Of a DNA stretch of 64,000 bases, positions 28,180 through 30,322 are shown piece after piece; positions within the stretch are counted from its first letter, which is position 1; each line of letters starts with the position of its first letter. The DNA lies in NCBI RefSeq assembly GCF_009674605.1, contig NZ_WKJO01000001.1, forward strand, positions 1,302,001 to 1,366,000, read 5' to 3'. This DNA is from Haloferax litoreum (GTDB lineage: Archaea > Halobacteriota > Halobacteria > Halobacteriales > Haloferacaceae). The translations under genes were made by a program, and so were the position numbers. Under the pieces are notes generated by a model. That model searched no databases, had not been told where the DNA came from, and saw only the letters and a list, made by a program, of their open reading frames with translations.

Positions 28180-28653
28180 ATGTACCGTTCCGGTTCCTTC
28201 GTCGCGGAGCACATCTCGCCAGTCACCGACGAGCAAGTCCAACCGAACGGCGTCGACCTGACGCTCGAATCGGTCCTCGAACAGGTCGAGGCCGGACACC
28301 TCGGCAGGGAGGGAAAGACCATCGGTGAACGTCGTCCCCTCGACTTCGCCGACCCAAACACGGAGACGTACCGCCTCGACCCCGGCGGGTACGTCCTCCA
28401 GTACGCCGAGACGGTCCAAATCCCCGAGGAACACGTTGGGTTCATCTACCCGCGGTCGTCGCTCATGCGGAACTCTTGCATGCTCAACACCGCCGTCTGG
28501 GATGCGGGGTACGAGGGGAAAGGTGAAGGGCTATTGCAGGTTCACCACCCCATCGACCTCGAACGCGGTGCCCGCGTCGCCCAAATCGTCCTCACGGAAG
28601 CGAACCACGACGGCACCTACGACGGAAGCTATCAGGGCGAACGGACTGAGTAG
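28180..28653 (+). CDS. dut: dUTPase/dCTP deaminase-family nucleotidohydrolase
   Basis: 157 residues with the fold shared by dUTP diphosphatase and dCTP deaminase. Motifs: QPNGVDLTLE, LDPGGYVLQYAETVQIPE, GFIYPRSSLMRNSC (the RSS nucleotide-binding motif), LNTAVWDAGYEGKGEG and LERGARVAQIVL. It would hydrolyse dUTP to dUMP, keeping uracil out of DNA. Deamination of dCTP cannot be excluded from sequence alone. It is divergent from aconitase. A GTTTTGC about 28 bp before the ATG is a weak TATA candidate. Confidence 0.88.
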   Translation: MYRSGSFVAEHISPVTDEQVQPNGVDLTLESVLEQVEAGHLGREGKTIGERRPLDFADPNTETYRLDPGGYVLQYAETVQIPEEHVGFIYPRSSLMRNSCMLNTAVWDAGYEGKGEGLLQVHHPIDLERGARVAQIVLTEANHDGTYDGSYQGERTE

Positions 28654-29083
28654 ACGACGCGACGCTGGGACTGCTGTCTCCGGTTCGATTCCACGCTGGA
28701 CCCGAACCGACACGGTTCACTGACTCTCTGTACATACCACATTGTTACCCACCTGTCCGTAGCGGTGACGTTCTCCCGGACGACGAATTTGTTTCAAGTC
28801 ACTGGACGACATACTATCGACCTGCGGAGGCCACATGAGACGGGACGAACGAGGGGCGAACCCGTGATTACCTACCTCCGCAACTTCCTTCCGGCCCACT
28901 TTCCGCACGTGTGAGCAAACGCGCCCGCTCACGGAGGGGTGGGCGCGACACGTGCGAGAGACACGATTTTCATCGATAGCGCCGACGTGCCTTCCGCTCG
29001 AAGTAAAGCCCTTCGAGTGAGGCACTCGGGTTCTGTGACCCAAAGGCACATTTACGCGCGTCCCTAAATCCGGCTAATTACTG
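28654..29083. other. 430-bp gene-free stretch with nested hairpins (structured RNA candidate)
   Basis: No long gene fits here. Three pairing elements are visible. TGCGGAGG (28823-28830) can pair with CCTCCGCA (28875-28882), covering a Shine-Dalgarno-like GGAGG and an 11-codon frame at 28835-28867. CGCACGTGT (28904-28912) pairs over 9 bp with ACACGTGCG (28948-28956) and encloses a 10-bp stem (28921-28930 with 28937-28946, two G-U pairs). CTCGAAG (28997-29003) pairs with CTTCGAG (29011-29017) over a 7-nt loop. GGGT...ACCC follows at about 29028-29041. It may be a non-coding RNA or a regulator of panB. The strand is undecided. Confidence 0.5.
29051..29056 (+). promoter_or_regulatory. TATA-like box of panB
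   Basis: TTTACG 28-33 bp before the ATG at 29084. With no Shine-Dalgarno, it indicates a leaderless panB mRNA that would start after the hairpin region. Confidence 0.5.
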
Positions 29084-30322
29084 ATGTCCCGGAGTCCATC
29101 TCTTCCAGAACGCCCTCATCTCGATCTGGACCCCGACATGTCGGATGCAGAGCGTCTCTCTGCACTCCGCCAACACGTCGAACGGATGATCGAGGTCAAC
29201 AGGGAACTCGACCAACGACTGCAATCTGCCGACGACCGGCACGCGGAACTGGTCGAGGAAGTCGAACAGATGAAAGCGCGCAACGAGGCGCTGAAGACTG
29301 CCTCGTACTACATCGCCACCGTCGAAGAACTGACCGACGACGGCGTCATCATCAAACAACACGGCAACAATCAGGAGGTCTTGACCGAGTTCGCGCCGAC
29401 TATCGACCGCGACGCCATCGAACCCGGTGACCGCGTCGCCATCAACGACTCCTTCGCCGTGCAGACGATTCTCGACGACGAGACGGACGCCCGCGCGCAG
29501 GCGATGGAAGTCGTGGAGTCGCCGACGGTCACCTACGACGACATCGGCGGCATCGACGAGCAGGTTCGCGAGGTCCGCGAGGCAGTCGAACAACCGCTGG
29601 AGAACCCCGAGATGTTCGAGAAGGTCGGCATCGACCCACCGTCTGGCGTCCTCCTCTACGGCCCACCGGGGACCGGGAAGACGATGCTGGCGAAAGCCGT
29701 CGCCAACGAGACGAACGCCTCGTTCATCAAGATGGCCGGGTCCGAACTCGTCCAGAAGTTCATCGGTGAGGGCGCACGCCTCGTCCGCGACCTGTTCAAA
29801 CTCGCCGCAGAACGTGAACCGGTGGTCATCTTCATCGACGAAATCGACGCCGTCGCCTCCAAGCGGACGGATTCGAAGACCTCTGGCGACGCCGAAGTCC
29901 AGCGGACGATGATGCAACTGCTCTCGGAGATGGACGGATTCGACGACCGCGGCGAGATTCGCATCATCGCGGCGACCAACCGCTTCGACATGCTCGACGA
30001 GGCAATCCTCCGGCCCGGCCGGTTCGACCGCCTCATCGAGGTGCCCAAGCCAGCAGTCGAGGGGCGCCGCCGCATCCTCGACATCCATACTCGCGACATG
30101 AACGTCGCCGACGACGTGGACCTCGACGCCCTCGCCGAGGAACTCGACGACTACTCCGGTGCCGACATCGCCTCGCTCACGACAGAAGCGGGCATGTTCG
30201 CCATCCGTGACGAACGCACCGAAGTCACCGAGGCCGACTTCGAAGCGGCCCACGAGAAACTCGCCAACGTCGAAGAGTCCGGAACTGGCCCCATCTCGGG
30301 ATTCACCGACTACCAGTACTGA
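29084..30322 (+). CDS. panB: Proteasome-activating nucleotidase (PAN), PanB-like
   Basis: 412 residues. An N-terminal coiled coil (about 25-75), an OB-type domain (about 78-130) and one AAA domain with Walker A LYGPPGTGKTMLAKAV (about 192-207), Walker B VIFIDEIDA (about 246-254) and the second region of homology ATNRFDMLDEAILRPGRFDR. PAN rings unfold proteins and feed them to the 20S proteasome. Haloferax has two, PanA and PanB. From memory this N terminus (MSRSPSLPERPHLDLDP) matches PanB. The C terminus is DYQY: the penultimate residue is Gln, so the strict hydrophobic-Tyr-X gate-opening motif is not met. Confidence 0.95.
   Translation: MSRSPSLPERPHLDLDPDMSDAERLSALRQHVERMIEVNRELDQRLQSADDRHAELVEEVEQMKARNEALKTASYYIATVEELTDDGVIIKQHGNNQEVLTEFAPTIDRDAIEPGDRVAINDSFAVQTILDDETDARAQAMEVVESPTVTYDDIGGIDEQVREVREAVEQPLENPEMFEKVGIDPPSGVLLYGPPGTGKTMLAKAVANETNASFIKMAGSELVQKFIGEGARLVRDLFKLAAEREPVVIFIDEIDAVASKRTDSKTSGDAEVQRTMMQLLSEMDGFDDRGEIRIIAATNRFDMLDEAILRPGRFDRLIEVPKPAVEGRRRILDIHTRDMNVADDVDLDALAEELDDYSGADIASLTTEAGMFAIRDERTEVTEADFEAAHEKLANVEESGTGPISGFTDYQY

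Follow-up and report, generated by a model that had tools for sequence, protein, structure and literature searches.

The question raised by this locus is whether the 430-nt gap at 28654-29083 in Haloferax litoreum, flanked by a dUTPase-like gene on the 5' side and the Pan2/PanB gene on the 3' side, gives rise to an RNA of its own, and from which part. A first-pass annotation of the 64,000-nt stretch analysed here (the window) had read the gap as a chain of strong hairpins forming a candidate novel structured RNA or leader before panB. The panB named there is the haloarchaeal proteasomal PanB, and it is followed by a pyruvoyl-dependent arginine decarboxylase gene. Our comparison of Haloferax genomes points to a smaller unit, with about 28820-28893 probably being an independently transcribed, non-coding intergenic small RNA (sRNA) gene of this genus. 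The features of the locus are listed below.

28180..28653, + strand: dUTP nucleotidohydrolase/DCD-like gene, upstream neighbour (NF002598, 229 bits against a cut-off of 130; PF22769)
28767..28798, + strand: promoter module of the putative sRNA gene, GACGTTC-N11-GAA-N4-TTTCAAG, with BRE-like CGAATT (28784-28789) and TATA-like TTTCAAG (28792-28798)
28823..28892 (about 28820-28893), + strand: conserved candidate RNA element, matched by models R1 and R2 in 15/15 Haloferax
28824..28881, + strand: closing stem, GCGGAGG (28824-28830) with CCTCCGC (28875-28881), extended to 8 bp in the window by T28823-A28882
28840..28865, + strand: inner stem, ACGGG (28840-28844) with CCCGT (28861-28865), predicted for the window sequence and its clade
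28850..28859, + strand: invariant loop core CGAGGGGCGA, in 15/15 Haloferax
28882..28892, + strand: pyrimidine-rich tail AACTTCCTTCC, with TTCCTNC in 15/15
28904..28956: nested hairpin (z -6.2), outside the conserved RNA, found in the window and, altered, in H. profundi, with low identity otherwise
29014-29028: semi-palindrome CGAGTGAGGCACTCG, directly 5' of the Pan2 BRE, partly retained in other Haloferax
29040..29057, + strand: Pan2 promoter CCCAAAGGCACATTTACG, in 15/15 Haloferax
29084..30322, + strand: proteasome-activating nucleotidase Pan2 (PanB), downstream neighbour (NF047747, 775.6 bits against a cut-off of 700)

Hairpins and conservation within the gap

All of the stems described in the first-pass annotation could be located. 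The nested hairpin has 9-bp arms (28904-28912/28948-28956) around an inner stem (28920-28926/28941-28947) that is longer when G-U pairs are counted, the 8-bp long-range stem pairs 28823-28830 with 28875-28882, and a 7-bp hairpin pairs 28997-29003 with 29011-29017. The + strand of the gap folded better than 100 of 100 shuffled versions (z -3.53), compared with a z of -1.66 on the - strand, where 5 of 100 shuffles were equally good. Sub-regions were picked post hoc and compared with 200 shuffles each, giving z values of -6.2 for the nested hairpin, -3.6 for the dyad region 28676-28714, -4.0 for 28985-29052 and -2.3 for the element at 28822-28893, which was equalled by 6 of its 200 shuffles. The 79-82-nt versions of the element from five species ranged from -1.2 to +1.3, with the window's own at -0.4, and its folding energy is thus unremarkable to modest. 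Against the claim that the hairpins exceed chance expectation, perfect 9-bp inverted repeats within 60 nt were no more frequent in the window (53) than in five shuffles (43, 55, 50, 55 and 52).

Parts of the gap were matched by DNA search in 20 of 59 genomes, the closest relative being H. profundi (L002), with a gap 95% identical. The gap alignment held 16 loci, 15 from Haloferax and one (L018) from a different genus. L018 has no such element in its 1249-bp gap and was excluded from later counts. Besides H. litoreum, the Haloferax sample includes H. marinum, H. marisrubri, H. denitrificans, H. profundi, H. gibbonsii, H. mucosum, H. sulfurifontis, H. elongans, H. larsenii, H. massiliensis, H. 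prahovense and Haloferax sp. Q22. Synteny of the gap with panB, and the placement of the element on the panB strand, were seen in 15/15. Column identity was computed on nine representatives of this alignment, which misplaces the 5' arm of the element in one clade where the model-based alignment A4 is correct.

Two conserved islands stood out within the gap in all 15 Haloferax genomes, one at about 28767-28892 and a second from about 29030 that comprises the Pan2 promoter and start. Column identity was 0.21-0.43 between them (28901-29000) and 0.03-0.27 beside the dUTPase gene (28651-28710). The nested hairpin, the CTCGAAG hairpin and the dyad at 28681-28709 all fall in low-identity columns, and among the listed stems only the element at 28823-28892 is distinguished by conservation. 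The whole gap as a single RNA was rejected on the low identity at 28901-29000. A reading in which every hairpin of the gap belongs to one structured RNA is consistent with the z values of the gap and the nested hairpin, but the identity in both low-conservation stretches makes it scarcely credible. The independent RNA proposed in the first pass survives as an apparent RNA gene of about 28820-28893, while the idea that its hairpins make up one chain or one structured RNA is not supported. The nested hairpin is perhaps a lineage-specific terminator or insulator. Its candidacy as a genomic repeat was dropped, as the genome held only its own full copy and seven partial matches (E 0.13-3.0).

Promoters and anatomy of the element

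The promoter module in island one lies on the + strand only and was present at the locus in 15/15 Haloferax, 14 without mismatch and one with a single mismatch. Matches with 1-2 mismatches also occurred away from the locus in several genomes, and a reversed control gave 3 matches in 39 genomes. Its boxes, CGAAT and TTTCAAG, are close but not identical to the haloarchaeal consensus of BRE CGAAA and TATA box TTWT given in PMC4983044. Identity in the module's columns was mostly 0.8-1.0 on the nine representatives (0.84-0.88 for the promoter), compared with 0.96 in the core and 0.42-0.53 between the TATA-like box and the stem; this lower conservation is expected if the transcript starts at the stem. 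In every Haloferax genome GCGGAGG begins 31-32 nt past the first T of TTTCAAG, a spacing that resembles the 33-35 nt between the TATA-like box of Pan2 (ATTTACG) and its ATG, likewise found in 15/15. In G005 only, a second copy of the module with one mismatch was observed upstream of another reading frame (L178:1501-1532).

The conserved Pan2 promoter at 29040-29057 confirms the earlier observation that the panB promoter follows the hairpins, and a promoter of this type also precedes PAN in 5/5 loci of other genera. Its position 3' of the element speaks against an ordinary panB leader. The semi-palindrome CGAGTGAGGCACTCG beside it is possibly a Pan2 operator.

In Haloferax the parts of the element follow a fixed order. 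GCGGAGG and CGAGGGGCGA are 16, 18 or 19 nt apart, another 13, 14 or 15 nt separate CGAGGGGCGA from CCTCCGC, and last comes the TTCCTNC tail, past which conservation drops. Both 7-nt arms of the closing stem are invariant in all 15 genomes, and predicted folds of the interior vary by clade. Among eight distinct sequences, 7 of the 8 closing pairs never vary and no pair has changed on both sides, so covariation speaks neither for nor against the stem. Core and tail are predicted to form a duplex with a raw energy of about -7 kcal/mol in 15/15 Haloferax, and we propose that they may pair as a pseudoknot. The tail is possibly the start of a terminator, although a T-run of at least 5 follows it in just 3/15 and a terminator is only suggested.

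As a separate observation, the 12-mer AACGAGGGGCGA recurs in the sense strand of the RNase P p29 gene (L105:1247-1678, - strand; G000:C1:1880962-1881390), which adjoins the uL29 and uS17 genes, and in some species up to 20 nt are identical between this gene and the RNA core. Motif searches found nothing like it in G009 and G010. The p29 gene carries synonymous changes in G003 and G013 that have no matching change in the RNA, and G006 and G011 differ too. We set aside a link between the RNA and p29 as probably chance, given the unmatched changes in G003 and G013. The p29 protein of Haloferax appears to have a long insertion within its Pfam domain, with residues 7-135 corresponding to profile positions 2-83.

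Distribution and comparison with known RNAs

Searches used two models, R1 built from 7 sequences with the closing stem and R2 from 15 sequences. Each gave one strong match per genome in 15/15 Haloferax, and in the window's own genome the next-best matches had E values of about 5, indicating that the element is single-copy. Elsewhere the matches were weak. Of the 155 other genomes of the family, 9 were matched by R1 (E ≤ 0.1) and 9 by R2 (E ≤ 0.05); R1 also matched 13 of 376 others of the class (E ≤ 0.1), and R2 matched 4 of the 379 genomes sampled from the order (E ≤ 0.01). The family, class and order samples overlap, and the stricter filters of the large searches miss weak matches. None of the 17 weak R1 loci, nor of two background matches in the window's genome, retained more than two of the five blocks, whereas all five are present in 15/15 Haloferax copies, a block reading that left out eight places found by R2 only (G021, G077, G123, G185, G191, G315, G441 and G464). 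The weak R1 loci sit in stop-free frames of at least 175 codons, which is weak evidence because many true copies do too. With the R2-only places aside, no convincing copy was found outside Haloferax in the 155 other family and 376 other class genomes. A pattern scan of named genomes returned 25 stretches, of which 12 from Haloferax scored 75-87 bits and the others at most 23 bits, and neither of two pattern matches in viral contigs was this RNA.

The first-pass annotation could not match the hairpins to SRP, RNase P, tRNA, box C/D or H/ACA RNA. Rfam 15, which covers SRP, RNase P and riboswitches among others, likewise gave no hits: none to the window at gathering scores, none to the gap up to an E value of 10 and none to four Haloferax loci up to an E value of 1. 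The two boxes of C/D guide RNAs, RUGAUGA (C) and CUGA (D), are both absent from 28823-28893 by reading. In box H/ACA guide RNAs an ACA (ANA) box lies just 3' of a stem; the tail AACTTCCTTCC contains no ACA by reading. Table 1 of PMC3956466 has no HVO_1956 or HVO_1957 number among its 27 sRNA genes, and literature on HVO_1957, HVO_1956, HVO_1956s and the core letters, supplementary tables aside, contained no description of this RNA. The H. volcanii copy is assumed from gene order. One H. volcanii study reports 395 novel intergenic RNAs (PMC4983044), and its tables may list the transcript; it is quite possible that transcriptomes of that species have already detected it.

An sRNA gene and its alternatives

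The case for an RNA follows from the placement of the promoter relative to one strand, the invariant complementary arms amid variable spacers, and the lack of a coding signal. As in archaeal intergenic sRNA genes, the element has its own promoter, lies between two protein genes and shows no conserved coding frame, as judged from indels and ATG counts. The first pass had also noted an 11-codon frame, which does begin at ATG 28835 in the window but is not conserved, the ATG being there in 2/15 elements. A leader peptide or small protein read from this frame would use the Shine-Dalgarno-like GGAGG that precedes the ATG in the window and H. profundi, and in a further 4/15 elements an ATG occurs at a different offset. 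However, 9/15 have none, and frames are shifted by spacer length differences of 1-3 nt (16/18/19 and 13/14/15), not all of them divisible by three. Such indels, together with the lack of a conserved ATG, speak against a peptide, which we consider most improbable. Every species has a stop-free frame across the element, between 53 and 358 codons long and ordinary for G+C-rich DNA, but the longest in L033 spans only 53 codons, so no long frame is conserved.

Two other readings concern the promoter itself. Island one might contain a second panB promoter with a 5' leader of about 260 nt, in which stem and tail act as an attenuator or other cis-acting element. The synteny and shared strand in 15/15 would suit such a leader, and PMC6490895 describes an H. 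volcanii "intergenic sRNA" upstream of HVO_2392 that turned out to be a very long 5'-UTR, likewise with a start site far upstream on the strand of the gene. In H. volcanii, panB induction was altered by a transposon inserted upstream of its TATA box (PMC6267482). In contrast to the HVO_2392 case, a conserved Pan2 promoter lies close to the gene, and the stretch from the element to this promoter measures between 82 and 184 nt in Haloferax and is poorly conserved. The documented HVO_2392 case keeps the long leader a real rival, albeit an unlikely one. A conserved DNA element, consisting of a promoter and a regulator-bound operator that produce no functional RNA, would equally suit perfect invariance without covariation, as expected of protein-DNA contacts, but the blocks, which reach 31-100 nt past the TATA-like box, include complementary arms and accommodate spacers of differing length; we regard this reading as quite improbable.

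For the favoured sRNA gene, the transcript would be approximately 70-90 nt. Transcription would start with the closing stem or slightly upstream of it and end within the pyrimidine tail or soon beyond, and the resulting hairpin would present the purine-rich core, perhaps tied back through the core-tail pseudoknot. Core or tail may then work in trans, with mRNAs as pairing partners or with a protein or the ribosome as binding partner. Such a role is plausible by analogy, as H. volcanii has regulatory and ribosome-associated sRNAs (PMC6104027 and PMC12482152). Pan2, which has its own promoter, is a neighbour and a candidate target at most; pairing of the core with the mRNA starts of panB and the dUTPase gene ranked 21 and 18 among 56 ORFs of the window, which is ordinary.

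The closest counterparts are the intergenic sRNAs of H. volcanii (s194, sRNA132 and the sets in PMC3956466 and PMC4983044), which are likewise free-standing, fall in a similar size range and share a promoter of the BRE/TATA type; the element described here has no Rfam family. In PMC3956466, 22 of 27 studied sRNA genes are reported as confined to H. volcanii, whereas this sequence-defined candidate occurs in 15/15 Haloferax genomes. The ribosome-associated sRNAs (rancRNA_s194, PMC6104027; ribosome-occupancy sRNAs, PMC12482152) are also small, non-coding and from Haloferax, and the arms and tail of the element bear Shine-Dalgarno-like and anti-Shine-Dalgarno-like letters.

A possible phenotypic lead comes from H. 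volcanii isolate 36A, in which, according to PMC6267482, a transposon sits between genes on the 5' side of the TATA box predicted for hvo_1957, and which shows hypochlorite hypertolerance and a panB induction of 5-fold in place of more than 10-fold. It is a lead only, because the transposon carries promoters and the exact insertion site is given only in that paper's supplement. As a long shot, a Haloferax-specific pseudoknotted sRNA, in which GAGGGG of the core pairs with the UUCCUY tail beyond the closing stem, might tune stress responses, including Pan2/proteasome induction, and its disturbance might contribute to the hypochlorite tolerance of 36A.

Haloarchaeal sRNAs are numerous, have mostly been reported as poorly conserved, and have few known targets. 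With its promoter, stem, core and tail retained across the genus, and a proteasome ATPase gene that responds to stress next to it, this locus would be a good deletion candidate in a laboratory H. volcanii strain, and the sRNA candidate offers an alternative reading of a published transposon mutant.
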